From assembly GCA_021413735.1 (NCBI GenBank), contig JAIOPV010000116.1:1-64000 (forward strand): a stretch of DNA of 64,000 nt, written 5' to 3'. Positions within the stretch are counted from its first letter, which is position 1. The number at the start of each line of letters is the position of its first letter. Source of the DNA: Planctomycetota bacterium (lineage in GTDB: Bacteria > Planctomycetota > Planctomycetia > Gemmatales > Gemmataceae). The translations under genes were made by a program, and so were the position numbers. Below, piece after piece: positions 21,359 to 52,190 of the stretch. The notes beneath the pieces are model-generated. The model worked only from the letters and a program-made list of their open reading frames with translations, had not been told where the DNA came from and searched no databases.

Positions 21359-21370
21359 TTGGAGCAATCC

Positions 21371-23116: not shown

Positions 23117-24088
23117 ATGACTACCGCCGAACCAGAACGCTCCACCGATCCGATTGTCTCTGCACCGACCGCACCAACTGTGGTTGCTTGCTACTCGGTA
23201 TTCGATCGCTTCTTTCCCGCATGCGGATTCACCGATCTGACCGACGGCATCTACGAAGGCGACACGAACCGTTCTTATGAGGCTGCCCAAGCACGACAGG
23301 CAGAAGTGCTTCTCGACCGTGCCGAAGTGTGGTCCGCGAGCCGACTGTTGGACATCGGCTGTGGGTATGGACGAATCCTCAAGGCTGCCACCAACCGCGG
23401 TGCGAAGAGTTGGGGGCTTACAGTATCGCCAGAACAGGTGCGACGGAACACGAAGGCGGGACTGGATACTCGACTCCAAAACTACAAACACCTGGGGCCA
23501 GAGTGGCACCGGCAGTTCGACGCAGTGATCGCGAACGGATCACTCGAGCACTTCGCCCAGCCAGCAGACGCCGTCGCTGGCCGCGACGACGCGATCTACC
23601 AGCATCTCTTCGCCACAGTCCACCGATTGCTCGATCCGGAAGTCGTGGGCGCGAAGTTCGTGACGACTGCGATCCACTTACGCGAAAGGCCGGATCCGCG
23701 CAACTGGCTTCGTCCACCGTCTCATTTTCAGTATGGGTCGGCCGAATTCCACTGGGCGAGGCTCGCCCGATCGTTCGGTGGCTGGTATCCGGTGATTGGA
23801 CAATTGGAACGGTGTGCGGAGGGTTACTTCCGACTCGTCCACGAAGAGGATGGAACCGACGATTATCGGATCACGTCCGAGGCGTGTCTGACGGCGGTGC
23901 GGCGAATCTTCCGATCGTGGCGGTTACCACAGGTGGGATGTGCGGCGTTGCCTGTGTTGGTCCGTCGCCCTGTCCACACGATTCGGATGCTGCGGTGTAT
24001 GCTCGGCAGCGAGTCTTGGAACTGGCAGTTTCGCGGCGATCAGGCTCCAACAGTGCTCTTGAGGCAGACCTGGGAGCGTGTCGCGTGA
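23117..24088 (+). CDS. SAM-dependent methyltransferase, cyclopropane-fatty-acid-synthase-like
   Basis: A 323-residue class I methyltransferase with AAGGAG seven bases before its ATG. Motif I is LLDIGCGYGR (residues 77-86), followed by WGLTVSPEQV and later DAVIANGSLEHFAQP. The upstream TDGIYEGDTNRSYEAAQARQ matches the CFA synthase pattern that precedes the SAM site, and the SPEQ segment is typical of CFA and mycolic-acid methyltransferases. It lacks a clear N-terminal lipid-binding domain. The substrate is uncertain, but its position about 2.7 kb upstream of a large lipid synthase makes acyl-chain or lipid methylation a reasonable inference. Confidence 0.78.
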   Translation: MTTAEPERSTDPIVSAPTAPTVVACYSVFDRFFPACGFTDLTDGIYEGDTNRSYEAAQARQAEVLLDRAEVWSASRLLDIGCGYGRILKAATNRGAKSWGLTVSPEQVRRNTKAGLDTRLQNYKHLGPEWHRQFDAVIANGSLEHFAQPADAVAGRDDAIYQHLFATVHRLLDPEVVGAKFVTTAIHLRERPDPRNWLRPPSHFQYGSAEFHWARLARSFGGWYPVIGQLERCAEGYFRLVHEEDGTDDYRITSEACLTAVRRIFRSWRLPQVGCAALPVLVRRPVHTIRMLRCMLGSESWNWQFRGDQAPTVLLRQTWERVA

Positions 24089-24121
24089 CAATCACGCAGG
24101 GGATTCAGTCTCAACGCGGAG

Positions 24122-25252
24122 TCACGCACCGCGTTCGTCGAGTAACGGCAATTCACGTGGACCGCGACACTCGCGGTTCACGTATTCCTGAAAATGATAG
24201 ATGCGTTCCTCGCGTGTGCCGATCACGCCACGATGCGGACTCGCCTCCATGCCCTTCTGCACGCCGCCGTAAATCGTCCCGTCTTCCTCGACGATCTGGT
24301 GAGCGACCATGTTCGAGATCGAACGCAGCAACCGGTAGATTCCCCACGCGAACGGTCCTCGTCGATGTCCTCGAAGCGTGAACAGCATACTGCGATATCG
24401 GCACGTCCTGGGACCAGTCGGGAACACGCACTGGTTCATCCGGATCACATCGAGGAATGCCGCCGTGATGTGCGGATGACGCACGCGGTGCCAGTATTCG
24501 TTCCTCACGGGGTGCCCCAAGCGACGAACCATCCAGTTGCTCATCCGCGTCGCGATATCGTTAGGCGGCACCGTCTTGTATGACGTGAAGTTCTCGGTCA
24601 GTTCGTGCCAGGAATTCTCTTCCTCCGAGAACTCCTTGAAGGTCTTGGGGTGGACCTGCGGAATGTGGTACGACTCCAGCGAATTCTCCAGAACAACCTT
24701 CCAGTTGCACGGGAAGTCGCGTTCCCAGGTTGCCGCGTGCCGGAAGGCCCCGCCGTAACTCGGCTGCCACTGTTCCCACACCGGATCGAGCCATTCCCGC
24801 AGTGACACCCCGTTGTCACTGAGATTCACGAACACGATCTCGCCGCATGTCTCCACGCGAAATGGCCGCAGGCACGAGTTCTCGCGGTCCCACGGTCGAA
24901 ACGCCATCGCGTCGGGAATCTTCCCCGTGTGGCCGTCGGCGTTGTACTCCCAGCCGTGATATTGACAGCGGAGCTTCTCAGTGTTGCCGCGAGGTTTCTC
25001 GGTGAGCTTACTGTGCCTGTGCGGACACACGTTCAGGAACGCACGCAGCTCGCTGTCGAAGTTGCGGATGATGATGGGCGTTTCGAGCAGATCGAACGTG
25101 AGGAAATCGCCCGGTTTAGCGAGATCGCCTACCGTGGCGAGCGGATGCCACGCGGGCTGAAACAGGTGACGCAGTTCGAGGCGGTGCTGCTCCTCGGATG
25201 TGTACTGATCGGGCCGCAGCAGGTGTTGAAGGTGTGTCTGGTTGGTAAACAT
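24122..25252 (-). CDS. Rieske non-haem iron oxygenase, alpha-subunit type
   Basis: A 376-residue ring-hydroxylating-type oxygenase. The Rieske cluster ligands are C76-x-H78 and C96-x2-H99 (VCPHRHSKL and CQYHGWEY, 17 residues between). The mononuclear iron site is visible in NWKVVLENSLESYHIPQVHP. I take the start at 25252 (MFTNQTHLQHLLRPDQY), because the extra 20 residues to 25312 come from a low-complexity repeat. The NWK/ENSLESYH signature is close to the choline/carnitine/sterol monooxygenase branch. No reductase or ferredoxin gene is adjacent. It lies downstream of the S49-like gene on the same strand. An oxidative step on the nearby lipid product is inference. Confidence 0.88.
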   Translation of the reverse strand: MFTNQTHLQHLLRPDQYTSEEQHRLELRHLFQPAWHPLATVGDLAKPGDFLTFDLLETPIIIRNFDSELRAFLNVCPHRHSKLTEKPRGNTEKLRCQYHGWEYNADGHTGKIPDAMAFRPWDRENSCLRPFRVETCGEIVFVNLSDNGVSLREWLDPVWEQWQPSYGGAFRHAATWERDFPCNWKVVLENSLESYHIPQVHPKTFKEFSEEENSWHELTENFTSYKTVPPNDIATRMSNWMVRRLGHPVRNEYWHRVRHPHITAAFLDVIRMNQCVFPTGPRTCRYRSMLFTLRGHRRGPFAWGIYRLLRSISNMVAHQIVEEDGTIYGGVQKGMEASPHRGVIGTREERIYHFQEYVNRECRGPRELPLLDERGA

Positions 25253-25261
25253 CTTTTTCGC

Positions 25262-25364
25262 AGGGCGGAAGGTAGAAGGGGGAAGGCGGAAAAAATCAGC
25301 GTTCCGCACCACCAGCTGCGTCTCGGTTTTTCATCCGCCTTCTGCCCTCCGCCTTCCGCCTTGG
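25262..25364. repeat. Imperfect purine/pyrimidine inverted repeat
   Basis: A purine-rich tract of GGCGGAAGG-type units (25262-25295) is complemented by a pyrimidine-rich tract of CCGCCTTC-type units (about 25332-25361) on the same strand. The pair fills the whole gap between the S49-like stop and the Rieske start. Confidence 0.5.
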
Positions 25365-26423
25365 TTATTTTCCCCCCAACTTCTCCATAGTCAATTCTGG
25401 CTGCCAGATGGAGAGGAATGTCGGCAATTTGCTGCGGTCGAGGCCCGGCAAACTCGGCAGAATCCCACTCCCCTGAAGCGGAATGTTCGCCGTGATCGCG
25501 TAAATCGTCGTCGCGGGGTCGTTCGTTCGGCGATACAGCACCACCTCCGGTCGAACACACGTCGCCCCTGGAAAACCAAGTTGCCCCGCTGTTTGGATCG
25601 CATCATCCAGATCGCCGAGGCGATCCACCAATCCGCGTTCGACGGCCTGCTTGCCGGTGAAGATACGCCCATCGAATGCTTTCAGCGAATCCAGTTTCGG
25701 TCGCGAACGCATTAGTTCGGCCCAAATCTGTTTGTGAAGTTCGTCGGCCATCGCTTGCAGCAACTCCTGTTCCGCAGGCTTCAGCGGTCGCGCCGATGAT
25801 CCGATGTCCACGAGTTCGCCTGCCTTGATCGACTGCGGAATGACGTTGAACTGAGCCATCAAGTCCTTCAAGTTGAACAGATTGAGAATCACGCCCAAGC
25901 CACCCGTGATGGTCGTGGAACTGGCCACCACGACATCGGCCACCGACGCAACATAATATGCTCCGCCTGCCGCGGTATCCATCAGGCACGCAACAACGGG
26001 CAGCTTTGTCCGCTCCTTGAAGCGTTCCAGGTCGCGACGCATGGCGGAACAAGCTGCCACGCCACCACCCGGACTGTTGATGCGCAGCACGACCGCTTTC
26101 GTGCAGCCGTCGCACTCAATGGCGTCGAGCTTCTCGCGGAAAAGAGCCACCGGATTCTCGCCGACTGAAAGAGGTCCGACGAACGGGGTATTCAGAATGA
26201 GGCCATCGACGTCCACAATCGTCACGCGGCCATTGCCTGGGGTGCCAGATTGCACAATCACCGGCTTGACCCTACCTGCCGTCGGGCTAACCGGCGGAAT
26301 GTCGGCAGTGACGCGAGTTTCGACCGGACCATCGAACGCGACGCGATTCTGGGTGCGAATGAGAAGTCGCTGGCAGCCGCTGCCAAGGATCAGAATTGCG
26401 AGAACGACAATGGAACGACGCAT
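25365..26423 (-). CDS. S49 (SppA/Clp-fold) protease-like lipoprotein lacking the expected catalytic dyad
   Basis: A 352-residue protein with a lipoprotein signal (MRRSIVVLAILILGSGC, Cys17 modified). The SppA fold is recognisable from VVLRINSPGGGVAACSAMRR, LPVVACLMDTAAGGAYYVAS, TITGGLGVILNLFNLKDLMA, SIKAGELVDIGSSARPL and FDGRIFTGKQAVERGLVDRL. In active SppA the segment reads AASGGYY with the Ser nucleophile, and the later segment SGxxKD supplies the Lys. Here the equivalent positions are Gly153 and Val205, so proteolysis by the known mechanism looks impossible. It may be a scaffold, or a divergent enzyme. It is divergent from the large synthase and sits upstream of the Rieske oxygenase. Confidence 0.8.
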   Translation of the reverse strand: MRRSIVVLAILILGSGCQRLLIRTQNRVAFDGPVETRVTADIPPVSPTAGRVKPVIVQSGTPGNGRVTIVDVDGLILNTPFVGPLSVGENPVALFREKLDAIECDGCTKAVVLRINSPGGGVAACSAMRRDLERFKERTKLPVVACLMDTAAGGAYYVASVADVVVASSTTITGGLGVILNLFNLKDLMAQFNVIPQSIKAGELVDIGSSARPLKPAEQELLQAMADELHKQIWAELMRSRPKLDSLKAFDGRIFTGKQAVERGLVDRLGDLDDAIQTAGQLGFPGATCVRPEVVLYRRTNDPATTIYAITANIPLQGSGILPSLPGLDRSKLPTFLSIWQPELTMEKLGGK

Positions 26424-26759
26424 TTTCGCCTCGACATTCGACCCAGGACACCCGCATCACCCAAACAATCGGCGTTTCCCATCCCTCCGGTTTAACCTTC
26501 CTTTCCGGCACGGCACATGCTGTAAGGACATTCCTTCCCGAAACCGTGAGCGAGACCAGAGATGCTAACCAACGCATCTTGCGAGCAGGGTCCAAAATAC
26601 CTTAACTCTCTACACTGCCTAAATTGCCGAACCGGTCCGAAAACGCGATACTGATTGTTGGAACGGATGACCGACACCAACACCCTCGCTCAGGCATGCG
26701 AGTTTTGATGACAGCCTGAGCTTATCAGGACAAGGAGGTCCGTGACGGCGAGGAGAGTG
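26424..26759. other. Divergent promoter region before the lipid synthase
   Basis: 336 bases between the S49-like gene and the synthase, without a gene. An inverted repeat GCTCAGGC/GCCTGAGC (26688-26695, 26714-26721; loop 18) lies just before a strong AAGGAGG at 26732-26738 and could be an operator or leader hairpin. No convincing -35/-10 pair was found. Confidence 0.45.
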
Positions 26760-29700
26760 ATGGAACCGCGCGACATTATGGTTTTGAGCCCTTTGGGGTC
26801 CGATCCTGCACTTGCGATTGCCGCGAGCAGGGGCGGAGCGATTGGGGTTCTCGATCTGGAACATGCCTCACGATGGAACGCGATAGCCGGGGCGTATTCT
26901 CGGCTTGCAAGGTTTGTGGGCAACAACTTCGGGGTGCAACTCCGCGCCGATGCCGACGAACTCTTCGCAGAGATCCTCGCGAGCCAGACCAAACCTAGCC
27001 GGATCATTCTTGTCGGTGACAGTCCGACATTTGCCACGCGAATCGCTGGCCTACGGGCTGCGAAAATCGAAGTGCTGGTGTCGGTGGTTAGTCATGTTGA
27101 AGCGATTCGCGTTGCGGAACTTGGGGTTGATAGCATCATCTTGAAGGGCCACGAAGCTGGCGGGCGCATCGGTGCCGACACGTCTTTCGTGCTGATCCAG
27201 AAATGGCGGCACCACGCCGATAAGCACAAACTCACCATTCCGTATTGGGTACAGGGTGGCATCGGGCCGAACACGGCTGCGGCGTGTCTCGCCGCAGGTG
27301 CTCGGGGTGTTGTTCTCGATTCGCAGGTGCTTCTCGCTCGTGAATCGCCGCTGTCAGAGGCCGCACGTCGGCGCATTGCAGGTCTCGACGGAAGCGAAAC
27401 CGCAATTCTCGGGGCGAAGTTCGGCGAGCCATACCGCGTCTATTCGCGCCCGGATAGTAGTGCCGCGACTGAGCTGGCGAAGGACGAAGAACTCCTCATT
27501 TCGCTGGAACAATCGGTGGAGGCGAAGTGTGCGGCTTGGCGTGAAGCTGTGCGGTCTCGTATCGCGGTTGATCCGAGCGAAGGTCTCTGGCTTGTCGGGC
27601 AGGACATCGCCACGGCACCCGCGTTGGCCGCATCGGGCGTCACCGTTTCCGGAATCGTGCAAGCGATCTGCGAACGTGCCGGCAAGCAACTCGAAGCATC
27701 TCGTCGGTTGGGCCATCTCGCAGGAGGTTCGGCGCTCGCGAAGTCGCATGGCACGAAGTACCCGATTCTGCAAGGTCCGATGACCCGCGTGAGTGACACG
27801 GCCGCGTTCGCCGATTCGGTCGCCGCTGGAGGTGCGCTGCCATTCCTGGCGCTGGCGTTGCTTCGCAAGGCCGAGACGGAAAAGCTCCTCGCGGAAACGA
27901 AGGTCAAACTCGGCTCGAAGCCGTGGGGCGTGGGCATTCTCGGCTTCGTGCCCAACGAAATCCGCTCCGAGCAGATGGAAGCGATCAGGCTCCATAAACC
28001 GCCGTTCGCGATCATCGCTGGGGGTCGCCCCGATCAGGCGAAGGAACTCGAAACGCAGGGCATTCCGACGTATCTGCATGTCCCGTCGCCGGGCTTGCTG
28101 AAGATGTTCCTGAAAGATGGCGCACGACGCTTCATCTTCGAAGGGCAGGAGTGCGGCGGTCACATCGGGCCGCGAGCGAGCTTCGCTCTGTGGGAGTCGA
28201 TGGTTGCCGTGTTGCTCGAACACGTCGGCGTCAAGCCTGCGGACGATCTGCATGTGGTGTTCGCGGGTGGCATTCACGATGCACTTTCGGCAACCATGGT
28301 CGCGGCTCTGAGCGTGGGATTGGCTGAGAAGGGCGTGAAGGTCGGCGTGCTGGTCGGCACCGCGTACCTGTTCACGAAGGAAGCGGTTGCCGGCGGCGCG
28401 ATCACCGAACGCTTCCAACGCGAAGCACTCGCGTGCGGCGAAACGGTGCTGCTGGAAACCGGCCCCGGTCACGCGATTCGCTGTATTCCGACGCCGTATG
28501 CCGAGACGTTCGAGGCTGAGAAACGCCGATTGCGTTCGGAAGGCAAGAGCCATCTGGAAGTCGGCATCGCGCTTGAGCGGATGAACCTCGGACGCCTCCG
28601 CGTCGCGAGCAAGGGCGTCGATCGTTCGTCTGGCGCTGCGAACGCGAGCGGCCTCGTCGAAGTGTCCGCGGATGACCAGTTCAGTCGTGGCATGTACATG
28701 ATCGGGCAGATCGCAGCGCTTCGTGACAAGGTCACGACCATCGCGGAACTGCACGCCGAAGTTTGTGGAAAAGTCAACGAAGCCTCGGTATCCACCGCCC
28801 CGACGTCCGTCTCCGCTTCGGTCAAGGATGCGCCGCCGCCGTGCGATGTCGCCATCATCGGGCTGTCGTGCTTCTACCCAGGGTCCACGGGGCTGACCCA
28901 GTACTGGGAGAACATCCTTAACAAGGTCAACGCGGTCATCGAAATCCCAGCGAGTCACTGGGACTGGCGACCGTTCTACGACCCCGACCCCCGCGCCCGA
29001 GACAAAATGATCTCGAAGTGGGGCGGCTTCATGTCGGACATCACGTTCGACCCGCTCGTCTTCGGCATCACACCGAAGAGCATCCCGAACATCGAGCCGT
29101 TGCAACTGCTGCTGCTCGAAGCGGTGCGGCAAGCCATCGCTGACGCGGGCTACGCTAACCGCCCATTTGAGCGCGAACGCACCTGTGCCATCCTCGGCGT
29201 CGGCGGCGGCGGCATGCCGTTGTCGGTCGCGTATGGCTTCCGAACGTGTATGCCGTTGATGGATTCCATTCCCGGCGTGCCGATCAAGGCGAAGCAGATC
29301 ATCGAGCTTGGCGAAGGCATTCTCCCCGAGTGGACCGAAGACTCCTTCCCCGGCATCCTGCTGAACGTCGCTGCGGGTCGGGTTGCAAATCGCTTCAACC
29401 TCGGCGGTCCGAACATGGCGATCGACGCCGCGTGCGGGTCGTCGCTGGCGGCACTATATGCGGGCGTCCGCGAACTGAACGACGGCACAAGCGATGTCGC
29501 GATCGTCATGGGCGGCGACGCAGTGCAGACGCCATACGCCTACGTTGCGTTCTCGAAGACCTACGCACTGAGTCCGCAGGGTCGGTGTCGCCCGTTCGAT
29601 GCCGCTGCCGATGGCATCGCACTCGCGGAAGGTGTCGGAGTAACGGTGCTGAAGCGGCTCGCGGATGCCGAGCGCGACGGCGACCGAATCTACGGCGTCA

Positions 29701-32700: not shown

Positions 32701-34232
32701 CAATCCTGCTCACCGACGATTGCAGGGGTACGGCCCGCGAACTCGCCGATCGCCTCGCGGAACTCGATGTGAAGACCGCTCTCATCCGCATGGCCGACGG
32801 TTCGACGGTTCCGGAAGGTGTGTTCGCTGCCGATCTCACCGATCCCGCGGCGGTCACGGAGTTGCTCGGGCGCATTCACACGACGTGCGGCCCGGTGTCG
32901 GGGCTGATTCACCTGTTGCCGTTGGCCGAGCCTGCCGACTCGGAAACGGACGAGCAGCGAATGCGACGAGAAGTGAAGTCGCTGTACTTGCTCTCGCGTG
33001 GGCTCGAAACCGATATCCGCGCGGCTGGCAAAGCTGGCAGTGCGGTGCTACTCGCCGTCACCGCGATGGGCGGGCAGATGGGCTTCGGTGATGCGTTGCC
33101 CGAAGACTTCTTCGCGGGGCACGGCGGCGTCGCCGGCTTCACGAAGTGCCTCGGCTACGAATGGCCAGAGGTTACGGTGCGGGTCGTGGACGTCGACGGC
33201 GAAACCCCTGCGACGCATCTCGCCGAAGACTTGCTCGCGGAACTCGGCGATCCCAAGGGTGCATTCGAGGTTGGCCGGGCCGGTGATCGCCGCGTGACGT
33301 GGCAAGTCGAGCCAGGACCGCTTGCGAAGGAAGATGCTGCCGTGGAGTTGGGCCCAGATTCGACGGTGCTGATAACTGGCGGTGCTCGCGGAATCACGGC
33401 GAAGGTCGCACTCGAACTCGCAACTCGGTACAAGTCGAAGCTCGTGCTGGTCGGCAGTTCGCCGGTGCCCGCAGAGGAAACGGCCGACACGCTGGGGCTG
33501 ACGTCGCAAGCCGAAATCAAGGCCACGTTGTTGAAGCGTCAGCCAGACGTGAAGCCTGCCGTGATCGAAGCCGCGTATCGCCGACTGCTCAAGGATCGCG
33601 AGATTCGCGGCAACCTCGACGCGATTCGCAAGGCTGGCAGCCAGGTCGATTATCGTGCCGTGGATGTTCGCGATGCGGCGGCGTTCGGCGGGTTGCTCGA
33701 CGAACTGAAAGCGGCTGGCGGCATCGCGGGTGTAATCCACGGGGCGGGTGTCATCGAGGACAAACTGCTTCGCGACAAGACCCCGGAATCGTTCGACAAG
33801 GTGTTCGGCACCAAGGTTGACAGTGCGATGACACTCGCACGCCATCTCGATCCGGAGAAGCTGAAGTTCCTGGCGGTTTTCGCGTCGATCACGAGTCGTT
33901 ACGGCAATCGTGGGCAGTCCGACTACGCCGCCGCGAACGAAGTGCTGAGCAAGCTGGCGTGCGATCTCGACCGTCGCTGGCCGGGTCGCGTCGTGTCGGT
34001 TGCGTGGGGGCCGTGGTCCGAGATTGGCATGGTCGCTGATCTGGAGAAGCACCTCGTCGCACGCGGCTTAAAGCTGATCGAGCCTGCTGTGGGTGCGGGC
34101 TTCGCAGTGGATGAAGTGATCTACGGCACGAAGGGCGAACCCGAGGTGCTCATCGCGGGCGGAACGGAACACGCTCGACCGGGGGCCGCTGCGGCTTCGA
34201 CCGCCGAACCGGTCGCAGTGGGGGCTCAGTGA
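26760..34232 (+). CDS. Multidomain PUFA/HglE-type lipid synthase: (PfaD-like)x2-KS-AT-ACP-KR
   Basis: A 2490-residue megasynthase. Residues about 1-235 and 320-635 are tandem PfaD/nitronate-monooxygenase-like flavin TIM barrels (KGHEAGGRIG; FEGQECGGHIGPR). They probably act as the enoyl reductase, with only the second keeping the GGH histidine. KS spans about 694-1150, with Cys892 (DAACGSSL), His1027 (EAHGTGT) and His1067 (MIGHSKC). AT spans about 1258-1560, with Ser1362 (GHSYGE). A Pro/Ala linker leads to a single ACP with Ser1869 (LGVDSIKR). KR spans about 2195-2460 (LITGGARGI, with Ser and YAAAN). Starts at GTG 26742 or 26757 are possible; I chose ATG 26760. Known PfaA has several ACPs and no reductase at its N-terminus. 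The partner gene begins 3 bp later. Confidence 0.9.
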   Translation: MEPRDIMVLSPLGSDPALAIAASRGGAIGVLDLEHASRWNAIAGAYSRLARFVGNNFGVQLRADADELFAEILASQTKPSRIILVGDSPTFATRIAGLRAAKIEVLVSVVSHVEAIRVAELGVDSIILKGHEAGGRIGADTSFVLIQKWRHHADKHKLTIPYWVQGGIGPNTAAACLAAGARGVVLDSQVLLARESPLSEAARRRIAGLDGSETAILGAKFGEPYRVYSRPDSSAATELAKDEELLISLEQSVEAKCAAWREAVRSRIAVDPSEGLWLVGQDIATAPALAASGVTVSGIVQAICERAGKQLEASRRLGHLAGGSALAKSHGTKYPILQGPMTRVSDTAAFADSVAAGGALPFLALALLRKAETEKLLAETKVKLGSKPWGVGILGFVPNEIRSEQMEAIRLHKPPFAIIAGGRPDQAKELETQGIPTYLHVPSPGLLKMFLKDGARRFIFEGQECGGHIGPRASFALWESMVAVLLEHVGVKPADDLHVVFAGGIHDALSATMVAALSVGLAEKGVKVGVLVGTAYLFTKEAVAGGAITERFQREALACGETVLLETGPGHAIRCIPTPYAETFEAEKRRLRSEGKSHLEVGIALERMNLGRLRVASKGVDRSSGAANASGLVEVSADDQFSRGMYMIGQIAALRDKVTTIAELHAEVCGKVNEASVSTAPTSVSASVKDAPPPCDVAIIGLSCFYPGSTGLTQYWENILNKVNAVIEIPASHWDWRPFYDPDPRARDKMISKWGGFMSDITFDPLVFGITPKSIPNIEPLQLLLLEAVRQAIADAGYANRPFERERTCAILGVGGGGMPLSVAYGFRTCMPLMDSIPGVPIKAKQIIELGEGILPEWTEDSFPGILLNVAAGRVANRFNLGGPNMAIDAACGSSLAALYAGVRELNDGTSDVAIVMGGDAVQTPYAYVAFSKTYALSPQGRCRPFDAAADGIALAEGVGVTVLKRLADAERDGDRIYGVIKGIGASSDGRDKGLTAPRAEGQLRALHRAYAQARISPANVALVEAHGTGTVVGDQTEARAIGQLFREAGGQAQSCALGSVKSMIGHSKCAAGLAGLIKTTFALYHKVLPPTLVETPNPKANLDGGPLYLNTEPRPWVHGAEHPRTAGVSAFGFGGTNFHTVVEEYNGDYLERTTTGFRQWPAELFVWRRAHVATIITDVKKCRDAINAGAAPELPDFAASVWQSSKQGDRQPTLTVVATSIADLKEKLDAALEKLAKPTDSLSDPRGIYFATKPQAAAKIAFLFPGQGSQYPDMLAQTAMAFPEVRSVLDRAERTLANDLEKPFGRFIYPPSSFSPEHEATNRKELQRTEVAQPALGATSLGMFKLLTTLGIEADFFAGHSYGEYAALAAAGALSEADLIRLSYRRGKVIRDAAASAAGGMIAVDGTPEAIEPVLKGIAGVWIANHNSPSQTVLAGTEDGLKAATAKLQAANLRAQRIPVACGFHSPLISGAKAPLAAALAEAKFATPRKPVFSNTTGVPHGSEPAAFAAQLAEHLVSPVKFSDEITAMHAAGARVFVEVGPQAVLTGLTTQILAGKPHLAIASDVKSRPGLVQLAHLLGQLLAAGVPVRLDRLFQGRGIQAFEIAKLGPDTGKPKLAPTTWVVNGVRSRPLNGPEPRLLGQNLSGTKPVVVPAKPTPAPASSAPAAPSKSVPSPTAATARPEPKPVPRPAPSTPIPPTSQPVVPGITRPMSTPPESIPTLTASLTNGTHSHPAPDGAAAVMMRFQEVMGRFLDTQRSVMLGFLGSNGAPSSNTTVDSVARPVTPTPAAAPVGTPAPTANGHVSPVAAPATNGKHTSELVKAVAPAGAKLDRETLLARLLDLVSERTGYPKEALSIDLDLEADLGVDSIKRVEILGTLAESIGPGDGGKQPNLEMEKLSVIKTLRAIADYVMEVIEEKDEPDAPPAPSLNGSHAKVLTVVPERNGDLHPGARQGDVQRLVVRLIDAPLPVRPSFAQPAGTILLTDDCRGTARELADRLAELDVKTALIRMADGSTVPEGVFAADLTDPAAVTELLGRIHTTCGPVSGLIHLLPLAEPADSETDEQRMRREVKSLYLLSRGLETDIRAAGKAGSAVLLAVTAMGGQMGFGDALPEDFFAGHGGVAGFTKCLGYEWPEVTVRVVDVDGETPATHLAEDLLAELGDPKGAFEVGRAGDRRVTWQVEPGPLAKEDAAVELGPDSTVLITGGARGITAKVALELATRYKSKLVLVGSSPVPAEETADTLGLTSQAEIKATLLKRQPDVKPAVIEAAYRRLLKDREIRGNLDAIRKAGSQVDYRAVDVRDAAAFGGLLDELKAAGGIAGVIHGAGVIEDKLLRDKTPESFDKVFGTKVDSAMTLARHLDPEKLKFLAVFASITSRYGNRGQSDYAAANEVLSKLACDLDRRWPGRVVSVAWGPWSEIGMVADLEKHLVARGLKLIEPAVGAGFAVDEVIYGTKGEPEVLIAGGTEHARPGAAAASTAEPVAVGAQ

Positions 34233-34235
34233 CGC

Positions 34236-37200
34236 ATGGTTGTCACCGTTACCGCACCGGCACCACAGGACGCCGCACTCACCACCGGATGGGATAGCGA
34301 GGCGTTCGTCCTTCAAGGGGCCGACCGTGCAGAGTTGCGCGAACGTGTCCTCACGCTCGCCAACACCGTCGAACGGCAAGCCGGGATATCGCTTCAAGAG
34401 ATTGCCGTTCGCCTTGCCGTCGAACTACGACCAGGTGGTTCGCGGCTTGCGGTCGTCGCGAGTTCCAGTCCGGATCTCGTCACGAAACTGCGACGTGCTG
34501 CGGATCGGCTTGCCGATCCCAAGTGCAAGCAAATCCGCGACACGAACGGTCTCTATTTCTTCGAACAACCGCTCGCATTACAGGGCTCACTCGCCCTGAT
34601 TTTCCCCGGCGAAGGCGCTCAGTATCCGGGGATGCTCGCGGACCTGTGCGGCGTCTTCCCAGAAGTCGAAGACACCTTCTCATGGTGCGATCGGCTTGCC
34701 GCCGATGCCGGTCGTGCTTCGCTGCGGAACATCCTGCATCCGACTCCGGAAGAGACCGTCGCTGCGGAAGCGGAACTGCGGAAGCTAGGGCCTTCGATCT
34801 TCGGAGTGCTGCTCGCCGATCTCGCTGTGACGCGGGTTCTGCAACGGCTCGAACTGCCGGTGTCGGCGATTGCCGGTCACAGTGCGGGCGAACTCGCTGC
34901 GTTGCTCGCGGCCGGTGCCTTGGACTCCGAGACGATGCTCGGGCCGAGCCTTGTCGAGATCATGGATCTAATGCAGCAGTTGGAAGAGGAAGCGGGCGGG
35001 CCGGAAGTTGCGTTGCTCGCGGTTGGTGCCGGGCGTGCGGTGGTCGAAGAAGTGACCACGAAGGTTGCCCCCGGCGTGATTGTCGCGATGGACAACTGCC
35101 CGCATCAATCGGTGGCAGTCGGACCAAGTCATCTCATCGCGGCAGTCGAATCCGCACTTCTTGAACGCGGATTGGTTTGCGAGCGGTTGCCGTTCCGTCG
35201 ACCATATCACACGCCGATGTTCGAGCCGTGGATGGGGCGGTTCCGTGAACTGTTCGCGGGCATCCCGTTCCATCAACCGCACACGCCGATCTACTCGTGT
35301 TCAACAGGGGCGAGGTTCCCAAATGATCCTCCCTCAATCCGCGAACTGACGGTGAACCACTGGGTTTCGCCTGTCGAATTCACGCGGATGATCGAGACGA
35401 TGTACGCTGACGGCGTCCGGATTTTCGTGGAAGCTGGGCCGCGTGGCAACCTCTCGGCGTTCACTGAAGACGTGTTGCGAGGCAAGCCGTGCGCTGTGAT
35501 TCCGGCAAACGTGACTCGCAAGAGTGGCCCCACACAGATCAATCACCTCGTCGCGCAGTTGGCAGCGCATCATGTGCCGATGAATCTGGTGAACTTGCAC
35601 GGCTCGCTTGATTTGGCGAGTGGGGGACGTGACTCCCCGGTTCAAGTCGCTCACGTGGAGAACAGGGGAGTCACGTCCCCCGCTCGCCAAGACACCGTCG
35701 CCATCATGGACGGCTACCTCAGCGTGATGGAGCAATTCCTCGACACACAACGCGAGGTCATGGAAGCGTTCCTGTCGGGACGGCCGGCACACGTCACCAT
35801 CCCGCAAGAGTTGTTCGCGTTCCCCGACTTCACGCCACAAGTTGACCAGCAACCGCCCACCACCAGCCATCAACAGCCCCCCGAGTTCTGCTTCGTCGGT
35901 GATGTCGTCCATCACGAACTTGGGCGTGAAATCATTCTTCGTCGCACGCTCGATGAACGCGAAGACATTTACGTCGACGACCACACACTTGGCGGTCGCG
36001 GTGTCAGTCGCGTCGATCCGGCACAGAACGGTTTGCCGGTGCTGCCGATGACGTTCAGCCTCGAAGGGATGTCGGAAGCGGCGACACTGCTCGCGCCGGG
36101 CAAGGTCGTGATCGCCCTCATGAATGTGCGGCTCTATCGTTGGGTGCCTTACGATCCCGAGCCAACGACGTTCGAGATTCGGGCGTCTGTCACCTCAATC
36201 GACGAGCAAACGGGCGTGGTCGAAGTGCGGGCGAACGTCCGCGACCTCAGCAACTCGTTCCTTCAAGATGGTGCGAACAAGCCTTCGTCGGAAGCGACCA
36301 TCGTTCTCGCGGATCGTTACCCCGAACCGCCCGAGCCGCGTCCGTTCGTGCTGACAGAAGAGATTCCGTGCAAGGCAACGGTCGAAGAACTTCGCCGGAA
36401 TATGTTTCACGGGCCACTGTTCCAGATGCTCCGTTCCCTCGACCGTTACGGCAAAGAGGGCATCGAGGGAACGCTAGAGGTACAAGGGCGTGACCATTGG
36501 TTCCGCTCTAACGCGAACCCGCGAGTGGTCATCGACCCCGTTCTCGTGGATGCCGCCATGCACATCCTCGGGGCGTGGCACCTCGAACAGCCAGACTGGT
36601 CTGGCCGAATTCTTCTTCCGATTGGAATGCAGAGTCTGGAGTTCTTCGGTCCGATTCCTGAGATCGGAAGCAAGCTGTTGGTTCGCGGGTACAACGAGGA
36701 AGAAACCGCCCGCCAAGCCCGGCACGGCGTCGAGCTGTTCGGCACCGATGGCCGACCGTGGTTCCGCCTCACGGGTGCGTCGTACTGGCGGTTTTACCTG
36801 CCGTTCGGCGACGTGAACTTCTTCGGGCCGAAGGACCAATACTTCCTGTGCAGCCGCGTTCCTGAAGCCGAGGTGAGTGACGCCAGCCGCTGCTACTTCC
36901 TCGATCCGCCGCTCGACCTGCAACAACCGGTGCTGCGTGCGTCGGGGATGCGGGTCACGATGACGCCTCGCGAAATGGCGAGTTTCCAGTCCACGGAACT
37001 GGATGAAGCGGCGAAGTCGGATTGGTTCTTCTCGCGACTTGTGTCGAAGGATGCGGTGCGGTCGCTGTGGAACACGCAGCAAGAGGGCGGCACATTCCCA
37101 GCCGACATGGAAACGGATGTGGTAGGAGATCGGATCGTGTGCCGACCGCGTGATGCTGCGACCACTGACAAGTACCCGCCCGTCGCGACCGCCATCGTGA

Positions 37201-37478
37201 AGGGCAAAGTGGCGGCATTCTCGGCCTTCGCGGAACAGCTCGGCATCGGCATGGTGTTGGTGAAGAAGGGCGATGCGGAATCGACGCTGCGGGTGGAGGC
37301 TGCTCAGCTCGCAGTCGCGGATGCGTTGAAGATTCCGGCTGACGGGTGGCGGGTCGAAGTGGGCAAGAAGGCCGGTCAGTTGCTCGTGACGCACGCGGGC
37401 AAGAAACTGCGAGTGCAGACCGCACGCCAGAAGGACGCGATCATCGCGACGACGATTTGCGAGATCGATCCCGCATGA
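34236..37478 (+). CDS. Lipid synthase partner: AT-dehydratase-degenerate PPTase-like domain
   Basis: A 1080-residue protein starting 3 bp after the previous stop. The acyltransferase spans about 115-430, with Ser216 in GHSAGE and PYHTPMFEPW later. A polyketide-type double-hotdog dehydratase spans about 545-880, with His583 (DDHTLGG) and Asp772 (VLVDAAMH) as its catalytic pair. The end (about 925-1050) reads DWFFSRLVSKDAVRSLW and FPADMETDVVGDRIVCRP, the pattern of a 4'-phosphopantetheinyl transferase. Its SHS-like and GIDLE-like active-site segments are replaced by PPVATAIVKG and LGIGMVLV. A 26-codon palindrome lies in the linker after AT. It supplies loading and dehydration activities missing from the first synthase. 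Confidence 0.87.
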   Translation: MVVTVTAPAPQDAALTTGWDSEAFVLQGADRAELRERVLTLANTVERQAGISLQEIAVRLAVELRPGGSRLAVVASSSPDLVTKLRRAADRLADPKCKQIRDTNGLYFFEQPLALQGSLALIFPGEGAQYPGMLADLCGVFPEVEDTFSWCDRLAADAGRASLRNILHPTPEETVAAEAELRKLGPSIFGVLLADLAVTRVLQRLELPVSAIAGHSAGELAALLAAGALDSETMLGPSLVEIMDLMQQLEEEAGGPEVALLAVGAGRAVVEEVTTKVAPGVIVAMDNCPHQSVAVGPSHLIAAVESALLERGLVCERLPFRRPYHTPMFEPWMGRFRELFAGIPFHQPHTPIYSCSTGARFPNDPPSIRELTVNHWVSPVEFTRMIETMYADGVRIFVEAGPRGNLSAFTEDVLRGKPCAVIPANVTRKSGPTQINHLVAQLAAHHVPMNLVNLHGSLDLASGGRDSPVQVAHVENRGVTSPARQDTVAIMDGYLSVMEQFLDTQREVMEAFLSGRPAHVTIPQELFAFPDFTPQVDQQPPTTSHQQPPEFCFVGDVVHHELGREIILRRTLDEREDIYVDDHTLGGRGVSRVDPAQNGLPVLPMTFSLEGMSEAATLLAPGKVVIALMNVRLYRWVPYDPEPTTFEIRASVTSIDEQTGVVEVRANVRDLSNSFLQDGANKPSSEATIVLADRYPEPPEPRPFVLTEEIPCKATVEELRRNMFHGPLFQMLRSLDRYGKEGIEGTLEVQGRDHWFRSNANPRVVIDPVLVDAAMHILGAWHLEQPDWSGRILLPIGMQSLEFFGPIPEIGSKLLVRGYNEEETARQARHGVELFGTDGRPWFRLTGASYWRFYLPFGDVNFFGPKDQYFLCSRVPEAEVSDASRCYFLDPPLDLQQPVLRASGMRVTMTPREMASFQSTELDEAAKSDWFFSRLVSKDAVRSLWNTQQEGGTFPADMETDVVGDRIVCRPRDAATTDKYPPVATAIVKGKVAAFSAFAEQLGIGMVLVKKGDAESTLRVEAAQLAVADALKIPADGWRVEVGKKAGQLLVTHAGKKLRVQTARQKDAIIATTICEIDPA
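35613..35690. repeat. In-frame palindromic insert inside the synthase gene
   Basis: Arms 35613-35638 and 35665-35690 are 26 bases each with one mismatch, around a 26-base loop. The total of 78 bp is exactly 26 codons, adding residues about 460-485 (GGRDSPVQVAHVENRGVTSP and neighbours) between AT and the linker helix without a stop or frameshift. Confidence 0.8.
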
Positions 37479-37753
37479 GTCGCACCACCGAGCAACTGTA
37501 CGCCGACCTCGCCACAGTAATGGCAACTGCCTTCCCTGATCGTGATATCTCCGTGACAGTCGGCCCCGAGACGCGTGTGTTCGCCGACCTCGGAATGGCG
37601 TCGATCGAACTGATCGTGCTGGGTGAGCGATTGGAACAGTTCTACGGAGGAAAGTTGCCGTACGGGCCGTTCCTCGCGGGGCTGCGAAAGCAAGGGGCCG
37701 AGGATCTGGAACTCGGCAAACTCGTTGAGTTCCTGCAATCGCATGTGAAATGA
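37475..37753 (+). CDS. Stand-alone acyl-carrier-like protein
   Basis: A 92-residue protein whose ATG overlaps the partner synthase's TGA (ATGA at 37475-37478), indicating translational coupling. The carrier motif is FADLGMASIELIVLGERLEQ, so the phosphopantetheine Ser is present while the usual preceding Asp is Ala. I recall the M-A-S-I variant in other free-standing carriers of the same type. The remainder is a four-helix bundle pattern (LYADLATVMATAFP at the front, DLELGKLVEFLQSH at the end). It probably shuttles starter or finished acyl chains to or from the synthase. Confidence 0.82.
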   Translation: MSRTTEQLYADLATVMATAFPDRDISVTVGPETRVFADLGMASIELIVLGERLEQFYGGKLPYGPFLAGLRKQGAEDLELGKLVEFLQSHVK

Positions 37754-37759
37754 TGGAGT

Positions 37760-37808
37760 CGCCGCTTGCGGCGTAGCGCGTTCTGAGAGCGCTACGCCGC
37801 AAGCGGCG
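37760..37808. repeat. Palindrome (GCCGCTTGCGGC family) within the lipid operon
   Basis: Perfect 20-bp arms (37760-37779, 37789-37808) with a 9-base loop. The core is the same as at 8833-8890. It lies between the carrier and hydrolase genes, all on one strand, so it may partly terminate transcription or stabilise the upstream message. Confidence 0.7.
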
Positions 37809-37825
37809 TAGAAGACGGAGATGCA

Positions 37826-38689
37826 ATGCCCGATGTTGTAGTCAACGGAACACGGCTCTTCTATCAGCAGTCCGGCGAGGGCCCGGATGTCGTGCTGATT
37901 CACGCCGTCACAAGCAATCAGGCCGTGTGGGTCTTCACCGGGTTGCCCGACGCCATCGCAGCCGAGGGGTTCCGCGTCACGACCTACGATCTGCGTGGGC
38001 ACGGTGCCAGCGATCGACCACCCACAGGCTACACGTCCGCTCAGATGGCCGACGACTTCCGGGCATTGCATGCCGAACTCGGACTGAAACCCGCGTTCGT
38101 CGTGGGGCACAGCTTCGGCGGAGTGATCGGCATTCACACGGCGTTGCTGCACCCAGAGTGCGTCGAAGGTGTCATTCTCTCGGATTCGTTCTTCCCCGGA
38201 TTGCGGCACGTCGAACCGAACTTCGGCCGTTCGAATGTATGGGTCGATCTGCAAGCCACGTTCAACGAGGTCGGCGTTGACCTTGGCGAAACGGTGAACT
38301 TCACCAGACTTTTTCAGGCGAGCGCGACACTCACGCCTGAACAAACCAAGGCACTCGAAACCCTTGTTGGCCCAATCGGTCGCGGCTGGCTGCGGCAACT
38401 CCCGCTGCTCGCGCAAACGACCTGCGGCGACGAAGTGCTTGCCGAGGCTGGGCTGACGGCTGAGAAGATCGCATCGGTTACGCGGCCCGTGATCGCACTG
38501 TACGATGAGTTCTCGCCGTTCCTCGCGACGTGTCGGTGGCTTGAGCAGCACATGCCGAACTGCACGGCCGAGATCATCCCGGAAGCGAAGCACCTCGCGG
38601 TTGTGGAGAACACCGTTGCGTTCACCGCGTCCGTCATCGGACACCTGAAACGGCTCGCCGCCCCGACGGGATTGCCGCTCACCGTTTGA
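37826..38689 (+). CDS. Alpha/beta hydrolase (possible releasing thioesterase)
   Basis: A 287-residue alpha/beta-hydrolase. The catalytic triad is readable: Ser in VVGHSFGGVIG, an Asp in ALYDEFSPF, and His in PEAKHLAVVENT. The oxyanion region is LIHAVTSNQAVW, and the DLRGHGASDRP turn is typical of the family. It has no signal peptide, so it acts in the cytoplasm. Placed directly after the synthase and carrier genes, release of the product from the carrier is a sensible inference. The family is broad, and an unrelated esterase cannot be excluded. Confidence 0.82.
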   Translation: MPDVVVNGTRLFYQQSGEGPDVVLIHAVTSNQAVWVFTGLPDAIAAEGFRVTTYDLRGHGASDRPPTGYTSAQMADDFRALHAELGLKPAFVVGHSFGGVIGIHTALLHPECVEGVILSDSFFPGLRHVEPNFGRSNVWVDLQATFNEVGVDLGETVNFTRLFQASATLTPEQTKALETLVGPIGRGWLRQLPLLAQTTCGDEVLAEAGLTAEKIASVTRPVIALYDEFSPFLATCRWLEQHMPNCTAEIIPEAKHLAVVENTVAFTASVIGHLKRLAAPTGLPLTV

Positions 38690-38707
38690 TACGCGAACTA
38701 ACCAAAC

Positions 38708-39892
38708 ATGCACTTTGCGACGTTTATCCTGAAGAACCTCACCAGGCGACCAACCCGAACGGTACTCACCGTTCTCGGCTTGGCCGTCTCGGTCGGGAGT
38801 ATGATCGCGCTGCTGGGTATCAGCGAGAATTTCCGCGAGTCGATGCGCGACACCTTTGAGAAACGCGGCGTCGATCTCGTTAGCGTCGCGAGCGGTGCAT
38901 CGGATCAGCTTTCGAGCGAAGTTGATGAAGGCATTATCGACAAGGTGCGTGCGATGCCGGATGTCGCGGGGGTGGATGCCGCCTTGGTCGAACTCAGCGA
39001 GATGACACTGCGCGAACCACGCGACGAAAACGACACGCCGCCGAGTTCGCAAGTTCTCGTCCAAGCCTGGCTGCCGGACAACTTCGGGTACGACGACCTC
39101 GAAATCCGGTCTGGTCGCAAGCTGACGCCGGAAGATGCGGGGCAGTTCCGGTGCATGGTCGGCTACAAATTCGCCGAGAACAACAACAAGAACGTCGGCG
39201 ACACAATCACCGTTCTCAGGCACAAGTTCACGATCGTCGGCGTCTTCAAGAGCTTCAATCTCTTCGAAAACGGCTGCATCATCACGGTGCTGAAGGAGTA
39301 TCAGGAACTCTCCGGGCGGAAGAATAAAGTGACAGGGTTCTCACTGCGTGTGAACAAGACATCGCAGAATCCCGACGAGGACGTGGAACGAGTGCGGCAG
39401 CGGATTCTTTCCCTCACGGACAAGGACGGCAAGCCGTTTCGTGTGTCAGTCGAGCGACCGCAGAAGTACCTCAATGACGCGGTTCACATCAAGATCACGA
39501 AGGCGATGGCGTGGCTGATTTCGGCCGTCGCGCTGTTCATCGGCGTGATAAGCATGTTGAACACGATGGCCATGTCGGTGTTGGAACGCACGCAGGAAAT
39601 CGGCATCTTGCGAGCGGTCGGCTGGCCGCGTGGTCGCATCGTTCGGATGGTGCTTGGCGAGGCAATCTTTCTTGGCATGGCGTCGGCGTTCGTCGGCACA
39701 ATCGGCGCGGTCGCCACGACGTATCTGCTCGCGATGTCGCCAAAGGTGAACGGCTTCATTGAGGGCGGAATTGCTCCGTGGATCATCGTGCAGGGTTTTG
39801 CCATCACCATTGTGCTGGGTTTAATTGGCGGGGCGTATCCCGCGTACCGTGCCGCCCGCCTGATGCCCACCGAGGCCATCCGCCATGACTGA
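38708..39892 (+). CDS. ABC transporter permease, MacB/FtsX/DevC-like
   Basis: A 394-residue permease with one N-terminal transmembrane helix (RTVLTVLGLAVSVGSMIALL), a 220-residue periplasmic MacB-type domain, and three C-terminal helices (WLISAVALFIGVISMLNTMA, LGMASAFVGTIGAVATTYLL, WIIVQGFAITIVLGLIGGAY). The cytoplasmic loop VLERTQEIGILRAVGWPRGR is the classic FtsX/MacB segment, and the end YPAYRAARLMPTEAIRHD is family-typical. This class moves lipids, lipoproteins or lipid-linked products by mechanotransmission rather than by a channel. Its stop overlaps the ATPase start by 8 bases. No membrane-fusion protein gene is adjacent. Confidence 0.9.
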   Translation: MHFATFILKNLTRRPTRTVLTVLGLAVSVGSMIALLGISENFRESMRDTFEKRGVDLVSVASGASDQLSSEVDEGIIDKVRAMPDVAGVDAALVELSEMTLREPRDENDTPPSSQVLVQAWLPDNFGYDDLEIRSGRKLTPEDAGQFRCMVGYKFAENNNKNVGDTITVLRHKFTIVGVFKSFNLFENGCIITVLKEYQELSGRKNKVTGFSLRVNKTSQNPDEDVERVRQRILSLTDKDGKPFRVSVERPQKYLNDAVHIKITKAMAWLISAVALFIGVISMLNTMAMSVLERTQEIGILRAVGWPRGRIVRMVLGEAIFLGMASAFVGTIGAVATTYLLAMSPKVNGFIEGGIAPWIIVQGFAITIVLGLIGGAYPAYRAARLMPTEAIRHD

Positions 39893-40580
39893 CGGCCCCG
39901 CTGGTCAACTGCTCTTCGCGTCGGACGTTCGCAAGACGTATCCCGATGGTGCGGTCCACGCACTGAACGGTGTCACGCTCGGCGTGCGCGAAGCGGAACA
40001 CGTTGCCATCACAGGACCGAGCGGCTGCGGCAAATCGACGCTGCTGAATCTGCTCGGCGTTCTCGACCGCCCAGACTCGGGCGAAGTCTTCTTTCGTGGC
40101 GAAGCACTCTCGACGCGGCGAGATCTCGACCGTTTCCGCGCCAGGCAGATCGGCTTCGTGTTCCAGTCATTCTTTCTGCTGCCGACGCTGACGGCTCGCG
40201 AGAACGTGCAAGTGCCGATGTTCGAGGGAATGCCCTTGTCGGCTCGCGAACGAGCGAAGAAAGCCGACGGCTTGCTTGAACTGGTCGGCATGGAAAAGCG
40301 GGCGGGTCATCGACCGATGCAGCTTTCCGTGGGTGAACGGCAACGGGTCGCGTTGGCCCGTGCGTTGGCGAACGATCCGGCGTTGTTGCTGGCTGATGAG
40401 CCGACGGGGAATCTGGATTCGGAGAACGCTGTTCGCGTTCTCGATTTGCTGACGATGCTTCAGAAGGAACGTCGGCTGGCGTTGTTGGTAGTCACGCACA
40501 GCGACGATGTTGCCCGTCGTGCGGATCGCGTTGTGCGAATGAAGGATGGCCGCGTGTTGGACGACGGTACCGCACGCTGA
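39885..40580 (+). CDS. ABC transporter ATPase, MacB/LolD/DevA-like
   Basis: A 231-residue ATPase with Walker A GPSGCGKST (residues about 45-53), a Q-loop region FVFQSFFLLPTLTARENV, signature LSVGERQRVALARAL, Walker B LLLADEPTGNLDSEN, and a switch His in VTHSDDVARRADR. The signature Ser-Val-Gly-Glu in place of Ser-Gly-Gly-Glu is a mild variant. It overlaps the permease gene and is surely its partner. A stop follows immediately before the convergent gene at 40586, so the lipid operon ends here. Confidence 0.93.
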   Translation: MTDGPAGQLLFASDVRKTYPDGAVHALNGVTLGVREAEHVAITGPSGCGKSTLLNLLGVLDRPDSGEVFFRGEALSTRRDLDRFRARQIGFVFQSFFLLPTLTARENVQVPMFEGMPLSARERAKKADGLLELVGMEKRAGHRPMQLSVGERQRVALARALANDPALLLADEPTGNLDSENAVRVLDLLTMLQKERRLALLVVTHSDDVARRADRVVRMKDGRVLDDGTAR

Positions 40581-41895: not shown

Positions 41896-42031
41896 TCGGC
41901 TCTTTACGACCGCGATAACCCGCGCTCACGGCAGGTCCGGACGCACGTTCCCCAAACTGCCACGCATCCTCGTCTCGCAGCCATCGCACCACTGGTTATG
42001 ATTGAATTTGCATGGCGAAGGGGGAATTGGT

Positions 42032-42970: not shown

Positions 42971-43003
42971 AGGTGGGGTGTGTGGTCGCCTCACCTGCGA
43001 CAC

Positions 43004-43034
43004 AAAAAGACGGCCGCCCCCGTTGGGGCGGCCG
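43004..43034 (-). terminator. Rho-independent terminator of rpsA
   Basis: On the minus strand a perfect 10-bp GC stem (43025-43034 with 43011-43020, loop 43021-43024) is followed by TC and five T's (43004-43008). It sits 20 bases after the rpsA stop. It also lies just past the convergent 42970 stop, so it may serve both genes. Confidence 0.85.
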
Positions 43035-43054
43035 CTCAACGATTCGGAAACAAC

Positions 43055-48868: not shown

Positions 48869-48870
48869 TG

Positions 48871-48928: not shown

Positions 48929-48932
48929 ATTC

Positions 48933-50141: not shown

Positions 50142-50158
50142 AAAAATCCCGCCACATC

Positions 50159-50231: not shown

Positions 50232-50262
50232 GCATTTCGTGTTTCGTATTCGATGTTGCGAG

Positions 50263-52117: not shown

Positions 52118-52190
<73 letters not shown>

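Follow-up and report, generated by a model that had tools for sequence, protein, structure and literature searches.

A fused pfaDA-type synthase operon linked to a Lol/MacB-like exporter in a Gemmataceae genome: a candidate locus for making and exporting a secondary lipid

What might a planctomycete make with an operon that joins a large lipid-type synthase to an ATP-binding cassette (ABC) permease and ATPase, and does the exporter carry what the synthase makes? The operon lies in a 64,000-nucleotide window, by which we mean the whole stretch of DNA analysed, positions 1-64000 of contig C63 (JAIOPV010000116.1) in the 9.8-Mb draft genome of a member of the Gemmataceae (the own genome, G000). 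Its six genes, all on the + strand between 26742 and 40580, encode synthase A, synthase B, a free acyl carrier protein (ACP), a hydrolase, a permease and an ATPase, spaced by 3 (A/B), -4 (B/ACP), 72 (ACP/hydrolase), 18 (hydrolase/permease) and -8 bp (permease/ATPase). An earlier note on this DNA had described such a compact one-strand operon with gaps of -8 to 72 bp, with reductases on A, a dehydratase (DH) on B and one embedded and one free ACP, and the open reading frames, coordinates and Pfam domains bore this out, weakly in the case of the free ACP. Overlooked at that stage were a phosphopantetheinyl transferase (PPTase)-like C-terminus on B and a START-like gene at 40586-41455. Our reading, which we hold with about as much confidence as doubt, is that this is a secondary-lipid operon of the ars/pfaDA kind (a type I iterative fatty acid/polyketide synthase) nested in a wider Lol/MacB-like lipid-export module with a START-like carrier. 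Within that reading, the class of the product, the direction of transport and the carrier role of the START-like protein are putative.

The comparison covered 58 other genomes, comprising 18 congeners, which together with the own genome form the genus sample (n=19), and 40 non-genus genomes. The named loci are the best 80 of 577 confirmed matches rather than a census, and many of them end at contig ends. Genomes, contigs and loci are numbered with G, C and L, respectively; L074, apparently the same contig as G014:C2, was not counted separately.

The ketosynthase (KS) tree that places the synthase had 76 rows, with one modular polyketide synthase (PKS) row and one enediyne row, both long-branched and loosely placed. 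It was built without canonical gammaproteobacterial PfaA; a search for PfaB in 274 genomes gave two proteins above the cut-off, one of which was used for the PfaC-type KS, and the HglE rows are Fischerella proteins assigned from their size (a 1796-aa frame) and an adjoining protein of KS and chain length factor (KS-CLF). The fused pfaDA-type A proteins, comprising ArsA, actinobacterial and planctomycete rows, formed one KS clade (support 98/98) and the HglE and PfaA rows formed a separate clade (99/99), with the sister relation of the two supported only at 87/60. The window KS fell within a 17-row planctomycete clade (100/98) in which the rows with a long enough contig all show the exporter; the A protein of L107, a locus titled Gemmataceae, lay on the actinobacterial side of the tree, outside this clade. 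The PUFA/HglE-type synthase proposed in the earlier note is therefore not what the tree shows, since the window KS stands beside the PfaA/HglE clade and outside it, and HglE membership was rejected on that placement. Its contrast with ordinary modular PKS did stand: the window KS groups with the pfaDA-type rows and not with the single, long-branched modular row, and on that placement a modular PKS identity was rejected.

Synthase A runs from a first barrel through an enoyl reductase (ER) barrel 2 to KS, acyltransferase (AT), ACP and ketoreductase (KR), with both barrels FabK/NMO-like by Pfam. The KS Cys-His-His, the AT Ser, the ACP Ser and the KR residues are kept in window A and in the readable related rows. 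Barrel 2 carries an xEAGGH-type motif with the proposed catalytic His (PMC13311796, cited, like all papers given here by PMC number, from an excerpt) in the window and in all readable rows except L062, whose barrel 2 is without the His, and barrel 1 has GGR where ER enzymes carry GGH, with Arg or another residue there in every readable row. This fused barrel pair, one of them altered, bears a resemblance to the thraustochytrid ER heterodimer, in which both domains bind flavin mononucleotide (PMC13311796), and may be analogous to it. Against the PfaA model TIGR02813, A scored 1047.7 bits, a narrow pass over the cut-off of 1010.1, compared with 1093.8 for Azotobacter vinelandii ArsA, 1750.4 for the Fischerella HglE-like protein and 1368.2 for the synthase on contig C70 of the own genome. 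Tandem ACPs and a PfaC-type KS-CLF partner were not found, a single ACP being detected in A and no KS in B. Judged from its N-terminal FabK-like barrels, its KS-AT-ACP-KR series and its KS clade, A is a fused pfaDA synthase (ArsA / type M-like).

As far as sequence motifs can tell, what is novel at the synthase is reduction, that is, a B without KS and with a PPTase remnant that lacks the catalytic motifs. In motif alignments B retains GHSAGE in its AT and both His and Asp in its DH, and in the window's genus, G028, G030 and G034 it begins in the KS-AT linker. Where a full-length B KS exists, the active-site Cys is present in 42 of the 44 domains aligned (some ten more B KS rows were left out of this alignment) and is replaced by Ser only in L108 (Singulisphaera acidiphila) and L075, both exporter-linked planctomycetes, which have HGLGV or HGLGL where most rows have HGTGT or HGTAT. 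L058 and L047, which belong to the same clade, retain only fragments of the B KS. One synthase type thus shows a graded series, with the second KS intact at one end and wholly lost at the other. The C-terminus of B alone gave no significant Pfam match; its 17-row profile aligned with a 19-row profile of intact PPTases at 99.0% in hhalign (E 7e-18, 201 columns). The PPTase motifs SxAH, GxDxE and WxAKEA are missing in 17 distinct B proteins (18 rows, L074 repeating L039), among them L055 and L046 from other genera, are present in L056 (G030) and are partly kept in L058 and L075. Decay of the PPTase does not parallel loss of the KS: the B of G030 lacks a KS but has an intact PPTase, whereas in L048 and L057 the KS of B has its Cys and the PPTase is degraded. 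The active KS and/or PPTase looked for in B as the partner of a fused pfaDA protein was accordingly absent. Because the PPTase of B has lost its catalytic motifs, charging of the ACPs would have to fall to a stand-alone PPTase encoded elsewhere, and the own genome has two, at C16 and C180. L057 (G057) and L048 (G053) represent a second, distinct locus for a synthase of this kind; they include a short-chain dehydrogenase/reductase (SDR) gene, and their stretches gave no match to the exporter. L057 also has a glycosyltransferase-like gene, and G057 holds both kinds of locus.

The free ACP begins at the ATG at 37475, overlapping the stop of B by 4 bases; its PF00550 match (E 0.022) is below the cut-off, and it occupies the place of a gene annotated as acyl carrier protein in Streptomyces plasmids. 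Of the 23 other genomes with a B of the window clade, 22 have the hydrolase (E<=1e-40); at that threshold it was not found in any of the 35 others among the 58.

The earlier note had also called the split of the domains unusual, but the same layout is already known from Beijerinckia and Streptomyces plasmids. Beijerinckia plasmid pBIND02 carries A, two type III PKS, a DH-PPT protein, a glycosyltransferase, an ABC permease, an ATPase and an adaptor; the Streptomyces plasmids carry A, B (KS-AT-DH-PPT), ACP, hydrolase, glycosyltransferase and methyltransferase. The ACP and then the hydrolase follow the synthase in 37 of the 80 named loci, with a glycosyltransferase next in 26 and then a methyltransferase as well in 16. 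Shulse and Allen (2011) listed Beijerinckia as a Type P organism and Renibacterium among those of Type M (PMC3098273), and a 2026 paper described a fused pfaDA with pfaBC-PPTase that closely resembles an uncharacterised Renibacterium cluster (PMC13291983). On the basis of the organism lists and the remark on fused genes, the actinobacterial fused pfaDA loci are probably Shulse and Allen's Type M. Their clusters of fused pfaDA and KS-AT-DH-PPT share with the window the order A-B-ACP-hydrolase, whereas the window B has lost its KS and PPTase motifs and is followed by an exporter, not by a glycosyltransferase or methyltransferase. The ArsA/ArsD synthase of Azotobacter (Type P) has an A that is alike over its full length and in the same KS clade, a partner with DH and PPTase, and ABC genes nearby; unlike it, the window block has no type III PKS, its B carries an additional AT and a remnant of the PPTase, it adds a free ACP and a hydrolase, and its exporter is not orthologous. 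Pfa synthases, including the C70 cluster, likewise pass TIGR02813, whereas window A has one detected ACP, its ER is fused to A and there is no KS-CLF. That second cluster of the own genome (C70, ~42000-57000, L064) is PUFA-type (polyunsaturated fatty acid), with 2317-aa pfaA-like and 2254-aa KS-CLF-type proteins, and probably belongs to Type I of Shulse and Allen, a type listed by them for Gemmata obscuriglobus (PMC3098273). The excerpt of a paper on hglE-KS in planctomycetes (PMC13190842) gives cluster counts only.

The permease has MacB_PCD and FtsX domains and four hydrophobic segments with a large domain between the first and the second (Pfam, hydropathy). It scored 59 bits against the MacB cut-off of 966 and 56.9 against the LolC/E cut-off of 362.45, and the ATPase scored 218.1 against 307.75 for LolD, its nearest model, and 180.3 against 295.8 for DevA. 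There is no adaptor gene among the genes of the block, and with the DevA cut-off missed as well, the DevCA-like exporter suggested by the earlier note found no support. The likeness to LolCDE-LolA lies in an ABC transporter with an FtsX-type permease, an ATPase nearest LolD and a secreted carrier-like protein; the differences are that all Lol cut-offs were missed, that there is a single permease gene and that the predicted fold of the carrier is START-like. The literature on LolA and LolCDE yielded no mention of planctomycetes among the matches listed.

The exporter is conserved together with the synthase. In 16 of the 19 genus genomes a single contig carries B, hydrolase and permease in this order (in G006 with the C-terminal part of B), with the ACP between B and hydrolase and the ATPase after the permease in 14 of 14 genus loci read fully, and B was present in all 18 congeners searched. 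In G003 the block is broken by contig ends, and neither hydrolase nor permease was found in G015, a genome that is 68% complete. The block is also kept in G028, G030, G034, G057 (L058), L108 of Singulisphaera and L075; SDR and methyltransferase genes stand between hydrolase and permease in all of these except G028, the order in L108 and L075 being hydrolase-SDR-methyltransferase-methyltransferase-permease-ATPase. G044 is consistent with the block, with a contig break intervening. The linkage of synthase and ABC genes on which the earlier note had built thus proved conserved in the genus and in relatives outside it, where window-clade permeases have 35-54% identity to the window's over nearly the full length. 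In G002, G010 and probably G006 a further partial match resembling the permease lies between the hydrolase and permease genes (Table 1).

ABC genes also lie beside ars-type synthases in Azotobacter, Beijerinckia and Methylosinus. Such genes stand next to ars-type synthases at L069 28753-31741 (with an adaptor), L070 24324-28645 (with an adaptor and TolC) and L086 22113-23827, which suggests dedicated export of ars-type lipids there too. The hgl islands of cyanobacterial type likewise pair their synthase with ABC genes (hgdBC; PMC11804610). Since the ars exporters match the window permease only distantly, these synthases seem to have been paired with an ABC exporter on more than one occasion.

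The same exporter occurs without the synthase. The permease (E<=1e-30) was found in 13 of the 40 non-genus genomes, and G021, G022, G023, G024, G029, G033, G042, G049 and G601 carry it without a window-type synthase. A gene for an S49/SppA-like lipoprotein, which in every genus locus showing that side stands divergent upstream of A, is back to back with permease-ATPase in G023, G024 and G042 and in line with them in G049; in G033 it is close to the permease, the ATPase and the START-like gene. In G601, which belongs to another family, it is divergent from START-like-permease-ATPase, and the domains of A and B were unmatched in 20 kb. G021, G022 and G029 have the permease without an S49 or ATPase match in the stretches examined, some of which end at contig ends. 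Because S49, permease and ATPase recur in this way without the synthase, the exporter is a wider module, and the synthase is nested between its S49 and permease genes. In the permease tree the synthase-bearing and synthase-less rows are intermixed, with weak deep support.

A probable further member of the module is the START-like gene, which is convergent with the ATPase gene at a distance of 5 bp. The protein had no Pfam or NCBIfam match, a PDB profile search gave a best E of 0.69, and a Pfam scan of 28 family members gave two single chance-level matches. Its AlphaFold2 model, built from 28 rows, has a mean pLDDT (predicted local distance difference test) of 89.9. Foldseek returned START domains first, with a best E of 2e-6 and, for the first ten, TM (template modelling) scores by query of 0.38-0.46 and root mean square deviations (rmsd) of 8-14, and VIA-align aligned 182 residues of the model with STARD5 at Z 12.6 and rmsd 3.3, the top 38 rows all being START domains; helix-grip proteins of other kinds came next, at Z 9.6 and below. 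From this modelling, the protein is predicted to have a START (helix-grip) fold. Its likeness to START lipid-transfer domains (CERT, STARD4/5) is one of predicted fold, and it differs from them in being bacterial, in having no sequence family match and in its signal-peptide-like start. The gene is present in 18 of 18 congeners and 12 of 40 non-genus genomes, and outside the genus it was found in 12 of 13 permease-bearing against 0 of 27 permease-less genomes (Fisher p 2e-9, a value overstated by kinship). In a phylum sample of 294 genomes, for many of which the first-look candidates were scored only in part, the START-like profile (E<=1e-10) matched only the own genome and G601, which were also the best permease matches; no START-like match came from the 27 genomes whose permease matches were weaker (E 9e-56 to 8e-31). 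The genomes with the gene close to the exporter are the own genome, G010, G016 (~4 kb), G028, G033, G034 and G601, and it lies at the other end of the synthase in G044 and G057 and likewise in L076, L090 and L094. What surprises most about the locus is that a secreted START-like protein is associated with an ABC exporter, even where the synthase is missing.

The S49 protein has lipobox-like N-termini wherever the start is readable and aligns to solved SppA structures, presumably those of B. subtilis and E. coli. In the columns that we take to be the catalytic Ser and Lys, the Ser position (AASGG motif) holds Gly in 23 of the 26 readable rows, Ala in one and Ser in two (L058 and L047), L253 being unreadable, and no row has Lys at the aligned position. 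Because of the Gly at the catalytic Ser position, the S49 protein is, on this alignment, probably not an active protease.

How might these parts work together? A and B would act jointly, the KS and AT of A extending a chain on the ACP of A, with each round reduced by the KR of A, the DH of B and barrel 2 of A. The synthase family points to a long acyl chain as the product, and the KR, DH and motif-intact ER suggest that the chain would be mostly saturated. The hydrolase and the free ACP would release the chain or hand it on, and a stand-alone PPTase would charge the ACPs. Linkage of synthase and exporter suggests that the product is exported: the MacB/Lol-like ABC pair would take it, or a lipid made from it, from the inner membrane and pass it to the secreted START-like protein, for which the predicted fold and the co-occurrence argue as a carrier through the periplasm, with the S49 lipoprotein as a possible non-proteolytic partner. 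The earlier note's broader idea, that a modified lipid is made and exported here, is thus supported as to the lipid-synthase type and the exporter linkage; its likening of the system to HglE and DevBCA was not. More tentatively, and with clearly less confidence than in the nested operon as such, we suggest a second Lol-like route of planctomycetes, in which the ABC pair extracts an inner-membrane lipid, a START-fold protein replaces LolA and a non-proteolytic S49 protein assists, with a one-KS or dead-second-KS synthase built in in the window genus and some relatives, including Singulisphaera. Such a route would bear on lipid delivery to the outer membrane and on the oddness of planctomycete envelopes. 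A literature search on Gemmata, START domain, lipid transfer, ABC transporter and secondary lipid gave no title on this locus among the matches listed. Tools for genome modification exist for members of the Gemmataceae (PMC12078418).

Several observations weigh against an operon that makes and exports its own lipid by way of a START-like carrier. G005 has the ACP followed by more than 16 kb without hydrolase-permease-ATPase, which stand together on another contig, and is a true exception to the linkage; 8 of the 13 permease-bearing non-genus genomes are without a B of the window kind and its hydrolase, so the substrate of the permease need not be the product of the synthase. The window permease matches the ars exporters at 20-25% or in short stretches, with the Beijerinckia one unmatched, and on this ground they are not the same transporter and orthology was rejected. 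In 16 of 18 congeners the START-like gene and the exporter are separated by more than 140 kb or lie on different contigs, the protein's hydrophobic, signal-peptide-like N-terminus (26 of 28 rows) was judged from hydropathy only, and the helix-grip fold, here itself a prediction from a model, also serves enzymes and receptors. For no cluster of the A-B-ACP-hydrolase kind did we see a known product. The main rival is accordingly an export module that serves another lipid or lipoproteins: exporter, S49 and START-like protein would be general Lol-like envelope trafficking, with which the synthase shares transcription but not substrate. We regard this as possible, though less probable than our own reading. 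It fits the permease without synthase in nine genomes, S49 beside the permease in G023, G024, G033, G042, G049 and G601, an ATPase nearest LolD and, weakly, the interleaving in the permease tree, but against it stand the short gaps (-8 bp between permease and ATPase, 18 bp between hydrolase and permease) and the gene order, which is retained in 16 of 19 genus genomes as well as in G028, G030, G034, G057, L108 and L075; both argue for joint function of synthase and exporter.

The remaining alternatives differ in what they would have the exporter carry, and each strikes us as improbable. A heterocyst-glycolipid-like system, in which an HglE-type synthase is coupled to DevBCA-like glycolipid export as the earlier note had it, could appeal to the pairing of synthase and ABC genes in hgl islands (HgdBC/DevBCA export) with their PfaA-related KS-AT synthase, and to A passing the PfaA model as the putative Fischerella HglE does; the window KS, however, belongs to another clade, the KS-CLF(-AT) protein, adaptor and glycosyltransferase are all missing from the block, and the DevA cut-off was missed, so we give it little credence. 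About as improbable is a cluster for a small polyketide molecule in which the ABC pair would serve as a MacB-like pump for self-protection: although the permease has MacB_PCD and FtsX domains, its score is far below the MacB cut-off, the KS groups with lipid-type synthases, and the presence of B in every congener searched is unlike the usual patchy antibiotic cluster. Least probable of all is that START-like protein and exporter move sterols. Some Gemmata make sterols and START domains bind sterols among other lipids, but squalene epoxidase had no match in the own genome, G003, G008, G010, G013, G014, G028, G030, G034 and G057, all ten of which carry the START-like gene, and sterol transport was set aside as unlikely for the family as a whole.

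Table 1. Features of the locus in the window and partial permease-like matches in related loci
Feature	Position	Strand	Basis or remark
CMAS-like methyltransferase	23117-24088	+	Pfam; flanking, not conserved with block
Rieske oxygenase	24122-25312	-	Pfam; frequent genus neighbour, not in all
S49/SppA-like lipoprotein	25365-26423	-	PF01343, SppA alignment; divergent from A, 318 bp between
Synthase A, 2496 aa, fused pfaD-pfaA type	26742-34232	+	Pfam, TIGR02813, catalytic motifs, KS tree
Synthase B, 1080 aa: AT - double-hotdog DH - vestigial PPTase	34236-37478	+	Pfam, motif alignments, hhalign
Free ACP, 92 aa	37475-37753	+	Weak PF00550, position as in Streptomyces plasmids
Alpha/beta hydrolase, likely release or transfer enzyme	37826-38689	+	PF00561 E 4e-23
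MacB/LolC-like permease	38708-39892	+	PF12704, PF02687, hydropathy
ABC ATPase, nearest LolD	39885-40580	+	NCBIfam scores, below LolD cut-off
Predicted START-like (helix-grip) protein, 289 aa, signal-peptide-like N-terminus	40586-41455	-	Model, structure matches, co-occurrence
Partial permease-like matches	L041 16976-17539; L054 14004-14627; G006:C611:1167-1763		Between hydrolase and permease

The methyltransferase, Rieske oxygenase and S49 genes that the earlier note placed beside the operon are all real, but conservation of the block does not extend to the methyltransferase: it was found in none of 30 related loci, whose 20-kb stretches stop close to where it would lie, and in none of 12 genomes viewed 10-12 kb further upstream, and was rejected as a member of the unit. 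The Rieske gene was found in 9 of the 30 related loci and in 7 of the 12 genomes with the longer upstream view. Upstream of the locus, on the + strand, lies a gene for a Ser/Thr protein kinase (21359-23005), directly preceded by a gene at 20810-21358 (+) whose product is sigma-factor-like by eye.

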